Assembly (NCBI GenBank): GCA_016292155.1
Contig: JAEFBC010000136.1
Span: 1 to 40,845 of the forward strand
Direction: 5' to 3'
Length of the DNA: 40,845 bases
Origin: Saccharofermentans sp.
Lineage (GTDB): Bacteria; Bacillota; Clostridia; Saccharofermentanales; Saccharofermentanaceae
The first letter of the stretch is position 1, and each line of letters begins with the position of its first letter. Of the stretch, positions 696 to 15,337 are shown one piece after another. The position numbers and the translations under genes were made by a program. The notes under the pieces are model-generated. The model was not told where the DNA came from. It made no database searches and saw only the letters and a program-made list of their open reading frames with translations.

Positions 696-806
696 TGTTT
701 ATAACTCTGTCCAAATTGTAGAAGTTGTCGGTTTTGTCGGCTTTTCTGTCGGTTTTTAGCAAAAGTTGAGACTAAAACCGACAAGGGTCCGCATTAGAAT
801 TTTAAC

Positions 807-3194
807 ATGAACAACTTTTATGGCAAAACAACGGGAAAGATAAGGCGCATGAGCCTTTGTGAACGGATAATGCGGCTGGCTGGAGCGCTCCTTAACGAGG
901 CAGGGCTCCTTGGAAAGGCATTTTCAAAGAGGCCTTTGCTGCTTCCTGCGGTTTTATTGCTGTCCTGCTGTTATCTGAGCTATCTGTCTGGGTCTTTTAT
1001 CCCTACAATCTGCTTATGTGTGCTGGTGATCAGTGTGTGCTTTGTCCATGCCAAAAGCACCAGGCATTTTAATGTGGTCTTAACGGGCATAATGCTTTGT
1101 TCTATATTGATCTACAGCGGTTTTCAGATCTCGTCGGCACTTAATGCGTATCAGGATCTGAATCAGGATGAATTCATCTGCCGGATAACTAATGTGTCAC
1201 ATGATCTGGCCGGTGATACAGACATAGTGGTTAATCTTAAAGGAGGCACTTATGCAGTGCTGAAATACTATGGAAATGACAGCCGCTATAAAGCACTTGA
1301 TACAGGTGACGTCCTTATCGTGAGCGGAAGCATCAAAGAGCCGGAGAAAGCCGGCAATCCGGGCGAATTCGATTACCGCGGATACTTAAGAAAGCAGGGG
1401 ATACTGTATGTTGTTAAGTGCGATTCTTTTGAGATAGCCGGAGAAGCGGGTTTCCCGGCAAATATAGCAGGCCATATCCGGAACCTGTTTTTCAGAATGG
1501 GGAAAAACGCCGTAAATGCTGTAACAAGGGGCTTTGACAGGTCTTCGAAGGCATTGGCGGCTGCTGTCTGTTTAGGTGATAAATCGCTTATTTCAGATGA
1601 GGTAAGAAGAGACTTCAGGATGTCCTGCTGTTCGCATCTCCTGGCTGTGTCAGGCACCCATTTCTCAGGGTTTCTCGTGTGTCTTCCGGTGATCCTTAAC
1701 GCCTTTAAGCTTAAGCGTAAAAGCGCATTTCTAGTACATACGCTGTTCTGCATACTGATCGGCTGCATGACAGGCTGGAGCGACTCGGTCACGAGGGCTG
1801 CCGTCATGAGCATCTGCGTATTCGCAGAAAGAGACTGGCTGTCAGCATTAAGCCTTGCTTCGCTCGTAATGACGCTGGCAGACCCGTTCTGCCCGTTGTC
1901 TTCAGGCTTTCAGATGAGTTTTTGTGCGGTGCTGGGCATAAAGATCTACAGCAAAAAGATCTCAGATCTGCTGATGCGGATCCATTTTGGCGAGAATTCA
2001 TCGGCTGTACTGGCTTCAGCAATAAGTGCTTCCCTTGGCATGATCCCATTCTGGTCTGAAATAGCCATGAGACCTGATATAGAGCACCTTTTGATCCAGA
2101 TGGCAGGCTCATTCATTGCTGGCCTGACGTGTACTTGTTTTGTCCCGTGCGTCTTCCTCTGCGTGATGTTTCCGTCTTTTTCGCAATACTTATCGGCACC
2201 TTTTCACATCTGCCTTAAGTGCCTTCAAGGGATCGTTGAGCTCGGATCGGGATTAAGTGAGAGGGGAGGTGCTCCGGTTCATATGCCAGGAGGCTTTTTG
2301 CTGCTTTTGGGAGCCGTTGTTTTCCTGATATTCCTGCCGCCATGCGCGTTAAAACGTGTGTTTTTGAAGCCTTCGTGTCTGGTGCTGGCCATTATGACAG
2401 GTTTTTCTGTCGTCCAAGTGGTGAATAAGCCTGATGTAAGGATAGTTTTCGCTGACGTCGGGCAGGGTGACTGCTGCCTAATAATGACGCCTTCCGTAAC
2501 CTGTCTGATAGATGCCGGAACTTATGAGGAAGGGGCTTCTACGGTAAGTGATCTGCTGGATTATTACGGTATCTATAAGGTCGATGTCTGTATCATGAGC
2601 CATTGGGACGTCGACCACGCCGGAGGAATAGCTGCTTTGTGCGTTCAGGGGCGGACAAATCAGATACTGACAGCTTATGTGCCGGGTCCTGAAGATCATG
2701 ACAGGGATGTCCTGGATTTTTTCAAGGCTACGGGTATGGATAATGCCCGGAAAGCCTTATTTAAAAGCCAGTTGGAACCAATTCTGGCAGGTGACAGGAT
2801 AGCCCTTTCCGATTCTGTAAATATCGATGTTTTATATCCTTATAAAAGCAGCGGAGGCGGAAATGAGGAAAGCCTCGTGCTGATGCTTAATGTCACTGGA
2901 AAAGAGGAAACTACGGTCCTTTTTACCGGAGATATCGGAAAGCTTACAGAAGACCGCCTGGTAAAAGACGGCTGTGCAATAGACTGCGATATCCTGAAAG
3001 TCGCCCATCACGGCTCGAAATATTCCTCGAGCAGCGGTTTTCTGGACAAGTGCTCGCCTGAGATAGCAGTAATCTCAGTGGGAGCTCATAATTTCTACGG
3101 CCATCCCGCGCCGGCCACTATGGAACGCCTGGAACATGCAGGCTGTAAGGTTTTCAGGACCGACCGGGAGGGGGCGGTTGTGCTGGAATATTAA
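807..3194 (+). CDS. comEC: ComEC/Rec2 DNA internalization protein (full length, with C-terminal metallo-beta-lactamase domain)
   Basis: 795-aa ORF; multi-TM competence domain (LLAVSGTHFSGFLV) and C-terminal MBL domain (FADVGQGDCCLI, SHWDVDHAGG, VAHHGSKYSSS). Start could instead be ATG 849. Confidence 0.93.
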   Translation: MNNFYGKTTGKIRRMSLCERIMRLAGALLNEAGLLGKAFSKRPLLLPAVLLLSCCYLSYLSGSFIPTICLCVLVISVCFVHAKSTRHFNVVLTGIMLCSILIYSGFQISSALNAYQDLNQDEFICRITNVSHDLAGDTDIVVNLKGGTYAVLKYYGNDSRYKALDTGDVLIVSGSIKEPEKAGNPGEFDYRGYLRKQGILYVVKCDSFEIAGEAGFPANIAGHIRNLFFRMGKNAVNAVTRGFDRSSKALAAAVCLGDKSLISDEVRRDFRMSCCSHLLAVSGTHFSGFLVCLPVILNAFKLKRKSAFLVHTLFCILIGCMTGWSDSVTRAAVMSICVFAERDWLSALSLASLVMTLADPFCPLSSGFQMSFCAVLGIKIYSKKISDLLMRIHFGENSSAVLASAISASLGMIPFWSEIAMRPDIEHLLIQMAGSFIAGLTCTCFVPCVFLCVMFPSFSQYLSAPFHICLKCLQGIVELGSGLSERGGAPVHMPGGFLLLLGAVVFLIFLPPCALKRVFLKPSCLVLAIMTGFSVVQVVNKPDVRIVFADVGQGDCCLIMTPSVTCLIDAGTYEEGASTVSDLLDYYGIYKVDVCIMSHWDVDHAGGIAALCVQGRTNQILTAYVPGPEDHDRDVLDFFKATGMDNARKALFKSQLEPILAGDRIALSDSVNIDVLYPYKSSGGGNEESLVLMLNVTGKEETTVLFTGDIGKLTEDRLVKDGCAIDCDILKVAHHGSKYSSSSGFLDKCSPEIAVISVGAHNFYGHPAPATMERLEHAGCKVFRTDREGAVVLEY

Positions 3195-3255
3195 ATGTTA
3201 CAGTTTTCTTTGCCTTATTTTGTCCCATAAACCCCACTGGAAAACAGAAGCAATT

Positions 3256-3264
3256 TGTTATAAT
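3256..3264 (+). promoter_or_regulatory. Candidate extended -10 (TGT-TATAAT) upstream of the GH25 gene
   Basis: Exact TGnTATAAT at 3256-3264, about 50 nt upstream of the start codon; no good -35. Confidence 0.45.
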
Positions 3265-3312
3265 CGGAACGTTAGGATATATAGGAGAGCATCCGGTCAT
3301 TAAGTCCGGGGA

Positions 3313-4548
3313 ATGGAGATTATGAGCACAAATATACGTAAAACATTGAGGTTTTGGGCAGCCGTTTCTCTTGCGGCAGCTGTTTCCATGTCAACATTGA
3401 CAGCCTGCAAGATCCCGGGTGGCAACATCGGCAGCACAGAGATTCCACCGAATACCGTAACCACTGAGACCACTGAGCCGACACCCACACCTGAGCCTAC
3501 TAATTCACCGACGCCCACACCCAGTCCCACTCCGGCAAAGGCCCATATGGACAAGCCTGAAGAGGATACGAAGGCCCCGATGTTCTTAAGCCTTCCTGAG
3601 TCTGTAAGCATCAAGGTCGGCAGTGAATTCAATATCCAGAAGCATATCGGCTATATCGATAACTGTGACGCCGAAGTAGATATCAAGGTTGAAGGTGAGG
3701 TCGACACAGCCACTGTAGGAAGCTATCCGATCACTATCACTTTGACAGACGATGCAGGCAATACGAAGACCGGCAATATGACGGTCAAGGTCTATAAGCC
3801 CAGCAACAACGGCGGTGGCGGCGGAGGCGGATCTGACACGCACAAGACACTCGCATACAGCGATTTTATGGCCAGATATCCTGATGCTGACATCGCTTAT
3901 GGTATTGATGTCTCCAGGTATCAGGGTGATATCGATTTTAATAAGGTCAAGGCTGCAGGATGCGAGTTCGTATATCTCAGAGCCATGATCTACAACAACA
4001 ATGAACTCGGTGTAGACCGCAAATTCGAACAGTATTATGCGGATGCAAAGGCTGCAGGCCTTAAGATCGGCGTTTATTACTATTCGACTGACAGCACCAT
4101 CGAGATGCTCCATGAGCACTGCGCTGAACTCCTTAAGGTACTGGCCGGCAAGCAGATCGATCTTCCTGTCGCATTTGACTGGGAGAGCTGGTGGAATTTC
4201 CAGAAATACAATATGAGTATTGTTGATATCAACAACCTGTTCTATGAATTTGCGGACATCATGACCCAGAACGGTTATAAGACCATTCTCTATGCGAGCA
4301 AGTATTACCTTGAGATCATCTGGGAACCTGCAGGTTACGATGTATGGCTCGCTCACTATGTCAAGCAGACAACCTATGAGGGTGAATATACCATCTGGCA
4401 GACAGGTTCTATCGGCAGGATCGACGGATGTTCTGAAGATGTGGATACTGATATCCTCTTTAAGAGCAAATATCCTGAGGTATTCGGCGGCAGTTCCGGC
4501 GGAGGCGGTACGGACGCCGGAACTGGTGAAGGAGAGCCCGTTGGCTAA
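3313..4548 (+). CDS. Secreted lipoprotein with Ig-like (DUF5011-type) domain and GH25 lysozyme domain
   Basis: Lipobox-like LTAC after a signal peptide, Thr/Pro linker, Ig-like domain, poly-Gly linker, GH25 motifs GIDVSRYQGDIDFNKVKAAGCEFVYLRA and AFDWESWW. Start may be ATG 3322. Confidence 0.88.
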   Translation: MEIMSTNIRKTLRFWAAVSLAAAVSMSTLTACKIPGGNIGSTEIPPNTVTTETTEPTPTPEPTNSPTPTPSPTPAKAHMDKPEEDTKAPMFLSLPESVSIKVGSEFNIQKHIGYIDNCDAEVDIKVEGEVDTATVGSYPITITLTDDAGNTKTGNMTVKVYKPSNNGGGGGGGSDTHKTLAYSDFMARYPDADIAYGIDVSRYQGDIDFNKVKAAGCEFVYLRAMIYNNNELGVDRKFEQYYADAKAAGLKIGVYYYSTDSTIEMLHEHCAELLKVLAGKQIDLPVAFDWESWWNFQKYNMSIVDINNLFYEFADIMTQNGYKTILYASKYYLEIIWEPAGYDVWLAHYVKQTTYEGEYTIWQTGSIGRIDGCSEDVDTDILFKSKYPEVFGGSSGGGGTDAGTGEGEPVG

Positions 4549-12449: not shown

Positions 12450-12533
12450 GTTTTGTTATAAATAGGATAGAAAAGAAATCCTTTCTTTAAATAATCCTTG
12501 AAATGCAATAAATAAAGGCGTTACAGCCGTTTT

Positions 12534-12562
12534 AAACGTCCGTTTTGACGGGCGTTTGTTTT
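12534..12562 (+). terminator. Intrinsic terminator after the MBL hydrolase
   Basis: AAACGTCCG-TTTTGA-CGGGCGTTT (one G-U pair) followed by GTTTTT. Confidence 0.7.
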
Positions 12563-12626
12563 TGTCGATTTTGTCGGTTTTTGTCGAGTTTTGTATGGTA
12601 AATCAAAGGCTTTTCCATTGTAGAAT
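12563..12626 (+). promoter_or_regulatory. TGTCG direct-repeat array plus candidate -10 TAGAAT upstream of the pseudopilin operon
   Basis: TGTCG at 12563, 12572, 12582 (9-10 bp spacing) and TAGAAT at 12621-12626. Confidence 0.45.
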
Positions 12627-12647: not shown

Positions 12648-12965
12648 ATGTCTTCACTGGAATCAGCTATTTGTTTTTCTCTTATCCTTGTTCTTCTGGC
12701 TTTCATGATCGCAGGTCCCGAAGCAATTGCCCTTGATTCTTTTCAAACGGCAAAAGACGGCGGTAATGAACTCTTTTACATGGAAAAGGACAGGGATGTT
12801 CTATACAAAAATAATGTGAGGGGCGTTGACTGTTACGATGCTTCTCCCGAGAAGCTCTGCACATTCCTTACCGGTATCTCGGATAACTTCAGGCTGTTCT
12901 ATGGAACAACATTCGATCTTGCGAATGATCAGGCTGGAAAGGAGGTCCCGGATGAGGAGAATTAA
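12648..12965 (+). CDS. Small TadE/pseudopilin-like membrane-anchored protein
   Basis: MSSLESAICFSLILVLLAFMIAGP N-terminus resembles the TLESA-type pilin segment; strong SD AAAAAGGAGGT. Confidence 0.6.
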   Translation: MSSLESAICFSLILVLLAFMIAGPEAIALDSFQTAKDGGNELFYMEKDRDVLYKNNVRGVDCYDASPEKLCTFLTGISDNFRLFYGTTFDLANDQAGKEVPDEEN

Positions 12966-14313
12966 CCGTAAAACAAGAACTAAACATGGTGCTTCAACGA
13001 TGTTCCTGGCGATAATCATGTCTGCGCTGGTACTTGTCGAATGCACTTATCTCTCGTTCGTCTGGAATCTTGATTATGCCTTAAGCGTAAATGTTGCCTT
13101 GAAGAACCAGATCGAGACCATCTTAAGCGACTATAACAGGCAGCTATACAGTATCTACGGCATTTATGCCTTTTCGATAGAAGGAATCGACAACGAGTGT
13201 TTTGAGAAAGCTCTCGAGATAAACGACCTTGAATCCAGATCCGAGCTGTATATTTCAGGTAAACAGAGATTTACCTGTGAAGACTTAAAGAAAGCGATCA
13301 ATTCGTATTACTGGTACAGAGGCACCGGAATCGGCTTTAAGAGCGTTGTCCAAGGCTACAGGGACATGATCTTAGAGCTCGATAAGAAGGGAATACTGCA
13401 GAAAGTCGGACAGTTCATGAAGAGTCCTGCCGCAGAGTATGTATCAAAGATACTGTCAGGCTCTGAATCTGCATCCGAATGGATCACGAAAGCAGGAGAT
13501 GCACTTAATATCGATGAGCTCACGGAAGAGGCAGACAGTATCGATTCGTTAAGCTCGGATTACAAGAACGCGGTCAAAGATTACGGGATCAATATAAAGA
13601 TCGACGCGGCCGAGTTTGATTCGCTCCTTAAAGCCGTCTCCAGGCTCGAGAAAACATATGCTGCATTATCTGACAACTCCAACGGCATGATCACCAAATG
13701 CAACGCCTCGCATTACTGTGCTTACAATTTTGACTGCTATTTCAGACCTTCAGGTGATGCTTCGATCAACGGCACGTCATTTGATTCGGTTCACGGAAAA
13801 AGAAAGGCTGACTGTGAATACATAATTACCGGCAGCGGAACCGAAGCTGCCACTGCGGAAGTCAGTTTCCTTATAGTTCACGTCCTTGTCGCATCCTGCA
13901 TGCTTAAAGACTTTGCCAATGAGAAGTTCAGGAACACGATGGAGGTTATTGCCAGGGTAATATCAGCGATTATAACCGCGGTAAGCGAAGGCGCGGTCAA
14001 TATCGATTACAGGATCATCGCAGTCGGTCTTACTTTCTATTGCGCCCTCGTTCAGGCAATCAAAGAGTATTACGCTGTGCTTAACGGCGGCAGGGCGGTT
14101 ATCTTCGAATATGACCGCGAGAAGATCGTTACCTTTAACTACAGGGATTTCCTTTATCTTTTCAGTCTTTGCGTGCCTTTGGATACGCTTCTAGAAAGAA
14201 GCCTCACAGTTCTTGAGAGGGACTACGGAAAACTCTATAAGGGACTGACTCTGGAAGCGGATTACAGGGGACAGACATATGCTCTCACGAAGTCATACAT
14301 GCTTTATGAGTAA
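12952..14313 (+). CDS. DUF5702-like / TadG-like secreted or pilus-associated protein
   Basis: GASTMFLAIIMSALVLVECTYLSFVWNLDYAL N-terminal TM and LSDYNRQLYSIYGIYAF; SD AAAGGAGGT at 12938-12946. Confidence 0.6.
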   Translation: MRRINRKTRTKHGASTMFLAIIMSALVLVECTYLSFVWNLDYALSVNVALKNQIETILSDYNRQLYSIYGIYAFSIEGIDNECFEKALEINDLESRSELYISGKQRFTCEDLKKAINSYYWYRGTGIGFKSVVQGYRDMILELDKKGILQKVGQFMKSPAAEYVSKILSGSESASEWITKAGDALNIDELTEEADSIDSLSSDYKNAVKDYGINIKIDAAEFDSLLKAVSRLEKTYAALSDNSNGMITKCNASHYCAYNFDCYFRPSGDASINGTSFDSVHGKRKADCEYIITGSGTEAATAEVSFLIVHVLVASCMLKDFANEKFRNTMEVIARVISAIITAVSEGAVNIDYRIIAVGLTFYCALVQAIKEYYAVLNGGRAVIFEYDREKIVTFNYRDFLYLFSLCVPLDTLLERSLTVLERDYGKLYKGLTLEADYRGQTYALTKSYMLYE

Positions 14314-14326
14314 AGGAGAACCTGAC

Positions 14327-15337
14327 ATGAAATATAAAAACAAGCGCGGTTCAGTGACTTTGGAATCGGCGATCGCATTTACCGTCACGATCGTCTTTAT
14401 TGCTTCGATCGTTTCTGCCATAGATTTTTACCGCACGGATATCCTCATGAGAAGGTCTGTCGAGCAGACTTGCGAGAAGATGGCGCTCCTTTATCCTGTT
14501 TCTGTTCCTGCAAGTGATCTTGTATCCTCAGCAGTCAATGCTTTTCCTGATCTCGGTATCGGGAATACCAAAGGCGCCGAAGTCATCGCGAAAGTGGCGT
14601 CCGCAGGCATGGGCTTCGATCAGAAGACAGGTCACACGATCAGGGAGCTTATCCTTCAGGGCCTGTTCTCGAAAACAATGGAAGAGCAGATTAGAAAAGC
14701 CTTTATCGAGCGTAACGGCGGCTCAGAATTCTTTGCACCTGATGAGATAGAAGTGTTTTTCGCCGTAAACGACAGACATAACATCATTGAGGTGGTTACG
14801 GATTATTCGGTCGTGACAATAGCTGGAAAGAAGACCAGGAGCATTTATTCTGTGATCCCGCTCTATGGCGAGCCCATCCTGATGCTCAACGGGGAAGAAC
14901 ATAAGGAGGCTCAGGAAGAGGATAAAGACGGTATCTGGTCACTTAATAATTTTGACAGGGGAGATGCGTTCAGGGAAAAGTACGGAGCCAACCTTCCCAA
15001 GACCTTCCCTGTGGTGGATTCGGTCAACGGCGGGGAAGTTACGGCCATAAGGAGCATCGATCTGACTTCGCCTTACTATCAGGACACCAAGAATATCGAA
15101 AAGAAGATAATGGCCGATATCAAGTCCCTTAAAAGATTTGAACCTCAGACTGCCACGATAAACGGACAAAAATACAGTGTCGACAGGGTTGATTCCAGAC
15201 ATCTTAAGGTTATAATACCTGAAAACTCCGGCTCGATCGGTAAGGAAACCATCGAGAATCTCAAGGGATATGCCTTTGTACAGGGCGTTATACTCGATAT
15301 CAGCGAGTACGGGACCTCGGAAAGATACAGCAACTGA
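14327..15337 (+). CDS. TadE-like pseudopilin
   Basis: KNKRGSVTLESAIAFTVTIVFIASIVSAIDFYRTDIL; SD AAAGGAGAA. Confidence 0.7.
   Translation: MKYKNKRGSVTLESAIAFTVTIVFIASIVSAIDFYRTDILMRRSVEQTCEKMALLYPVSVPASDLVSSAVNAFPDLGIGNTKGAEVIAKVASAGMGFDQKTGHTIRELILQGLFSKTMEEQIRKAFIERNGGSEFFAPDEIEVFFAVNDRHNIIEVVTDYSVVTIAGKKTRSIYSVIPLYGEPILMLNGEEHKEAQEEDKDGIWSLNNFDRGDAFREKYGANLPKTFPVVDSVNGGEVTAIRSIDLTSPYYQDTKNIEKKIMADIKSLKRFEPQTATINGQKYSVDRVDSRHLKVIIPENSGSIGKETIENLKGYAFVQGVILDISEYGTSERYSN

Follow-up and report, generated by a model that had tools for sequence, protein, structure and literature searches.

comEC and a Pilin-like Operon Are Preceded by Similar Box Arrays

The stretch of DNA analyzed here (the window; 40,845 nucleotides) is the entire contig C156 of a 2.4-Mb Saccharofermentans assembly that is 77% complete. 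It carries comEC and a pilin-like operon, both of which are preceded by an array of TGTCG-containing boxes and a TAGAAT hexamer (Table 1). The product of comEC stays below the cut-off of the full-length family, and its ComEC_N-term domain scores above cut-off. The small protein encoded by the first gene of the operon has no match in Pfam or NCBIfam, and an identity of the window proteins as Flp, TadE, or TadG pilins is based on sequence features, with no match in family searches. An orthologous operon with the same array was found in about 20 genomes. The preliminary description of this DNA had named these genes pseudopilin genes; they are better named Tad-type pilus genes, though the window proteins match no Pfam pilin family. 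As a side observation, C-terminal residues 220–324 of the TadE-like protein (window 14984–15298) resemble the restriction-endonuclease-like domain of the CDI toxin EC869 (PF21111; 26.7 bits, cut-off 27).

Table 1. Features of the comEC and pilin-like operon loci (window coordinates).
Feature	Position	Strand	Details	Basis
comEC operator array	725..751	+	TTGTCG 725, TTGTCG 734, CTGTCG 746	sequence
Degenerate last box TTGAGA before comEC	766..771	+	29 bp 5′ of −10	sequence and position rule
Single inverted box TTGTCGGT, between comEC array and −10	777..784	−		
comEC −10 TAGAAT	795..800	+	TTAGAATTTTA(A/T)CATG shared by the 16 named relatives listed	sequence
comEC	807..3194	+	795 aa	TIGR00361, 175.8 bits (cut-off 190)
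Intrinsic-terminator-like hairpin of upstream gene	12533..12558	+	array abuts directly 3′	
Pilin-like operon operator array	12562..12586	+	TTGTCG 12562, 12571, 12581	sequence
Degenerate last box TTGTAT, pilin-like operon	12591..12596	+	30 bp 5′ of −10	sequence
Pilin-like operon −10 TAGAAT	12621..12626	+		sequence and position rule
Pilin-like small protein, operon gene 1	12648..12965	+	105 aa	ORF
TadG-like membrane-anchored protein, operon gene 2	12949..14313	+	454 aa	ORF; assigned by sequence features only
TadE-like protein, operon gene 3	14327..15337	+	336 aa	ORF

The positions that had been given for the TGTCG cores (726, 735, and 747 before comEC; 12563, 12572, and 12582 before the pilin-like gene), for both TAGAAT hexamers, and for both start codons are exact, and the distances of the repeats to the start codon (60–81 nt for comEC and 66–85 nt for the pilin gene) are correct as well. 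No further TGTCG cluster had been noticed, and pairs of TGTCG 3–7 bases apart are indeed confined to the two sites (four matches, compared to a mean of 0.38 and a maximum of 2 in 100 shuffles of the 40,845-base window). The identical TAGAAT −10 is present at both sites, but it is not specific, as TACAAT, TATGCT, and TATAAT serve equally at array promoters. Both arrays extend into a degenerate last box, which starts 30 bp (pilin-like operon) and 29 bp (comEC) before TAGAAT, and the two promoters thus share one precise geometry.

Upstream of comEC, the 16 named relatives listed display the same order of elements, i.e., the TTGTCG array, TTGAGAC, an inverted CCGACA, and TTAGAATTTTAACATG, with small changes and variable intervening bases. 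The comEC relatives comprise rumen Saccharofermentans as well as “Ruminococcaceae” MAGs and isolates. The array is kept in these 16, although a few have lost copies or carry degenerate ones, and the last box of most relatives reads TTGAGAC or a variant differing by one or two bases. The inverted CGACA copy (779–783) is also conserved; relative to engB on the opposite strand, the inverted box does not satisfy the spacing rule described below. Regarding the pilin-like operon, the array is laid out identically in G066, G072, G010, G060, G064, and G075, and relatives carry TTGTAT, TTGTAA, or TTGTCA at the last-box position. The ATG of comEC follows 6 nt after TAGAAT. For comEC and many nuclease-like genes of relatives (see below), the −10 lies very near the ATG, and the mRNAs would be leaderless or nearly so.

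The Arrays Precede DNA-Uptake and Pilus Genes across the Genus

We scanned 85 related genomes of the genus with the pattern TTGTCGN{2,4}TTTGTCGN{2,4}TTGTCG and used the reversed pattern as control. Triple TTGTCG arrays with a 10-bp period were found in 63 of the 85 genomes and the control returned none; across four other genera of the same family, just two genomes contained a match. For 146 unique sites with a gene ≤350 bp downstream, sampled from the scan lists blind to gene identity, we determined the target. Eight families lie downstream of 136 of these arrays. The nuclease-like family is the most common (49 sites in 29 genomes), followed by tadZ-like genes (21), the pilin-like operon (20), comEC (12), comEA (11), recA and comM (9 each), and one unknown family (5), while 10 sites precede other genes. 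The comEA targets were confirmed by TIGR01259/TIGR00426, and recA and comM were recognized from their sequence. A DprA-like open reading frame, recognized by eye, is next downstream of comM, which places comEA, comEC, dprA, and recA under one operator. The tadZ-like genes, which have no family match, are followed by a TadA-family ATPase (best match TIGR03819; 255 bits, below the equivalog cut-off of 373) and a TadB-like frame recognized by eye, so that a TadA-type ATPase and TadB share the operon as in Tad pilus systems. As most of these families are DNA-uptake genes, we read the arrays as the operator of a predicted DNA-uptake (competence) regulon in Saccharofermentans. The shared regulation of DNA-uptake and pilus genes that had been proposed from the two window sites is supported by this target set: in dozens of genomes, arrays lie before comEA, comEC, comM-dprA, recA, tadZ-tadA-tadB, and the pilin operon. 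The position of the arrays suggests the proposed activator role.

The nuclease-like family (L006 126–926 on the minus strand, with orthologs in, for example, L025, L043, L067, L355, and L357) occurs in several copies in some genomes. Its invariant residues (S-E, D, and E..G) follow the pattern expected for a PD-(D/E)XK-like nuclease; a Pfam search gave no match, and comparison with solved structures nothing convincing. A function as a DNA-uptake-specific nuclease is possible. The unknown array-controlled family comprises proteins of 150–300 aa (L039, L041, L199, L228, and L260), and the one member searched had no Pfam match. Furthermore, a few arrays in G025 and G032 (L034, L239, L233, and L262) precede toxin–antitoxin-like genes (HicB-like and RelE-like).

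Within the window genome, the arrays at real promoters are those of comEC and the pilin operon, together with one before a nuclease-like gene on C246, where TAGAAT again lies 29 bp after the last box. Matches on C61, C126, and C275 were rejected as promoters and assigned to an interspersed repeat (G000 C61:1–62, C126: about 2258–2385, C275: about 3215–3577; L001, L003, and L008). Its pieces of 44–130 bp are 74–100% identical, occur in both orientations, are rich in TTGTCGG, and are partly palindromic. It may serve as a decoy, or may be a mobile repeat with no relation to the arrays.

Most Array Promoters Combine a Regular Spacing with a Missing −35 Element

Neighboring boxes are 10 bp apart in 315 of 353 pairs (512 boxes). 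In 60 promoters, a −10-like hexamer under a strict criterion (5/6 match to TATAAT) begins 29 or 30 bp from where the last box starts; the distances peak again at 40. Usually, the last box starts 29–30 bp upstream of a TAnnnT −10, or further away by whole helical turns. This rule is common to the unrelated nuclease-like, tadZ, and pilin families, and to comEC if the degenerate last box is counted. With 21 of about 110 promoters that have TAnnnT at this position, TAGAAT is the commonest −10; comEA promoters carry TATGCT or TATCCT by inspection. Matches to a −35 are near the shuffled level at array promoters except for recA, which has TTGACA-like −35 elements (n = 2).

The spacing bears on whether the arrays act as promoter elements at all. 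The window genome does contain the TTGTCGG-rich repeat on C61, C126, and C275, and the arrays might likewise play no role in promoters and represent a DNA-uptake sequence or interspersed repeats; the fixed distance to the −10 in unrelated genes and the conservation at orthologous promoters, however, make this explanation very improbable. We regard it as equally improbable that the U-rich repeats function in RNA, as a terminator or part of a leader. The pilin operon array does lie behind a terminator-like hairpin, and one terminator-like call falls within the comEC array, but the arrays are located 5′ of the predicted −10, the comEC and nuclease genes, being nearly leaderless by prediction, would leave the repeats outside their mRNAs, and a spacing that varies by whole turns fits a function in DNA.

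A class-II activator would need a box placed in this way, at about −42 to −37 next to a −35-less promoter, and we infer that the array-bound protein activates. That it mainly represses its targets is unlikely, if somewhat less so than the two preceding explanations: Spo0A, whose DNA-binding domain is considered below, both activates and represses, and does both at B. subtilis comK (PMC3297582), whereas an array 5′ of the core promoter with no −35 except at recA fits activation.

A Single-Copy Protein with a Spo0A-Type DNA-Binding Domain Is the Candidate Regulator

The 0A box has the consensus TGTCGAA, in which Spo0A contacts G2, C4, and G5 (PMC3485338). The TGTCG of the arrays equals this base-contacted core. 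Since the core positions were preset by our search pattern, the box logo is informative at the flanks only; there, the AA of the 0A box is not conserved, with A following TGTCG in 24%. Full-length Spo0A was rejected as regulator, as no full-length match was found; instead, one weak Spo0A_C match each was detected in 60 of 85 genomes. A profile built from these weak matches hit 82 of the 85 genomes exactly once each. This protein, termed mini-Spo0A, reaches 26.5 bits for Pfam Spo0A_C (PF08769; cut-off 25), and its profile hits the solved structures of the Spo0A DNA-binding domain (PDB 1fc3/1lq1) at E-values of 2–4e-6. It comprises about 180 aa, with an N-terminal part of about 75–80 aa before the DNA-binding domain in which D19 and D50 are invariant. 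A full N-terminal receiver is not present, as judged from a Pfam search with no receiver match, and mini-Spo0A scores 15.3 bits against the Spo0A equivalog TIGR02875 (cut-off 200). The recognition helix follows the pattern E-R..R-Y and contains the equivalents of what we take to be E213 and R214 (numbered by PDB chain alignment and a presumed chain start), with R in 82/82 and E in 71/82 genomes. Genuine spo0A typically adjoins spoIVB in the argR-recN region. In G006, the gene order is ligA-fthC-small gene-mini-spo0A, and the spoIVB/argR-recN neighborhood is absent. No array precedes mini-spo0A in any of the 82 genomes (0/82), which speaks against autoregulation through such arrays. Together with the covariation described below, the box core and the DNA-binding domain strongly suggest, short of proof, that mini-Spo0A is the reader of the boxes.

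We consider it probable that the arrays are the operator of a competence regulon with the target set described above, read and activated by mini-Spo0A at TTGTCG boxes. The regulator would be this single-copy protein, in which a shortened N-terminus, in place of a full receiver, precedes the Spo0A-type DNA-binding domain. Several copies of it would bind side by side, one every 10 bp and thus one per helical turn, and the promoter-proximal copy at about −42 to −37 would sit beside RNA polymerase and activate the −35-less promoter in a class-II-like manner. This would switch on comEA, comEC, comM-dprA, the Tad-type pilus (tadZ-tadA-tadB and the pilin-like operon), and the PD-(D/E)XK-like nuclease, and would add recA transcription to that from recA's own sigma-A promoter. 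As a presumed outcome, cells would become transformable.

Comparison with Known Spo0A and Competence Systems

The predicted system shares with Spo0A and its 0A boxes in Bacillus and Clostridium the ER..R motif of the recognition helix and the TGTCG core. The boxes also lie upstream of the gene at a similar distance from the ATG (−75 for spo0A and −78 for sigH in C. difficile; PMC3485338). In contrast to Spo0A with its full receiver, mini-Spo0A has the short N-terminus and is not a Spo0A equivalog; its gene neighbors ligA and fthC, the arrays comprise 3–5 boxes, the targets are DNA-uptake instead of sporulation genes, and the box sequence varies within the genus Saccharofermentans. Late competence regulons under ComK or sigma-X likewise co-regulate comEA, comEC, dprA, recA, and pilus genes. 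The ComK box and the cin-box of these regulons both differ from the TTGTCG operator. In B. subtilis, Spo0A~P gates comK by direct promoter binding (PMC3297582); here, a Spo0A-type factor is likewise predicted to bind promoters directly in competence, but the boxes lie on the late genes themselves and not on a master regulator such as ComK. Transformation of Micrococcus luteus depends on Flp/Tad pili and, as in Saccharofermentans, ComEA/ComEC occur together with Tad pilus genes; this organism belongs to an unrelated phylum and lacks TadZ, and the available portion of the report describes no such operator (PMC4322843). The system thus appears to operate like one with Spo0A boxes, yet by a protein that is no Spo0A equivalog, and its nearest precedents are comK gating (PMC3297582) and M. 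luteus Tad transformation (PMC4322843).

We found no report of this regulon and no paper on competence in the rumen lineage in the literature searched, most subscription journals being outside its reach. For Saccharofermentans, a genus of Clostridia that is mainly known through metagenomes, the regulon predicts natural transformation in a rumen lineage, together with a likely master switch and its operator. Through co-regulation, DNA uptake in Clostridia would be tied to Tad pili, and a DNA-binding domain of the sporulation type appears to have been turned into a competence activator.

Box Sequence and Recognition Helix Change Together in Two Clades

The E of the recognition helix is kept in 71 of the 82 genomes and replaced in 11 (by V in 6, S in 3, A in 1, and K in 1). 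In the regulator tree, the S and V genomes fall into two distinct clades, both well supported. The three S genomes (G028, G034, and G049) lack the TTGTCG array and are the sole 3/85 with TTGTGAG triple arrays, which precede tadZ, comEA, and nuclease-like genes; their comEC promoters carry TGTGAG-type pairs (3/3). The boxes of at least four S-clade targets therefore appear to have been rewritten as the reading helix changed. The V genomes also lack the TTGTCG array, and their comEC promoters, from which the V-clade box (TTTCGGA) was read with one promoter per genome, carry TTCGKANNNNTTCGGA in 6/6 and in no others examined. No clear array was apparent upstream of V-clade comEA, which in this clade seems to lie directly behind another gene. 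The comEC promoters of the remaining genomes mostly have TGTCG pairs, and the clades separate without overlap. Rewritten boxes in two clades would represent a natural experiment on binding-site change across a whole regulon.

Some genomes deviate from this pattern. G044 (E to A) and G033 (E to K) retain TTGTCG arrays, and G065 (97% complete) and G079 (69%) have arrays with no mini-Spo0A detected by profile search. Twelve E genomes are without a perfect triple array, and several of those inspected retain looser TTGTCG boxes. As the covariation comprises two clades, another regulator may have changed coincidentally. Response regulators of the OmpR/PhoB type bind direct repeats of 10–11 bp, and the 10-bp direct repeats of the arrays would be typical of this family. 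The same regulon and operator could accordingly be read by such a different regulator, with the link to mini-Spo0A being coincidental, and the exceptions G044, G033, G065, and G079 fit this alternative. It is nevertheless doubtful, though to be taken more seriously than repression, as the arrays share their core with the Spo0A box and, in two separate clades, box shifts coincide with the replacement of a single helix residue.

Whether the more far-reaching reading applies appears to us evenly balanced: a shortened Spo0A derivative would be the direct master activator of Tad-pilus-based transformation, the arrays would have been rewritten at many promoters with the helix change, and the dedicated PD-(D/E)XK-like nuclease would be new to competence systems. 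Further box variants were observed outside the S and V clades. G078 has T near the helix where Q is usual and instead carries TTGTGTG-like repeats about every 10 bp (L155 and L331), while G061 and G027 (L169, L172, L341, and L345) carry TTGTAACGGA repeats, suggesting more specificity changes than those of the two clades.
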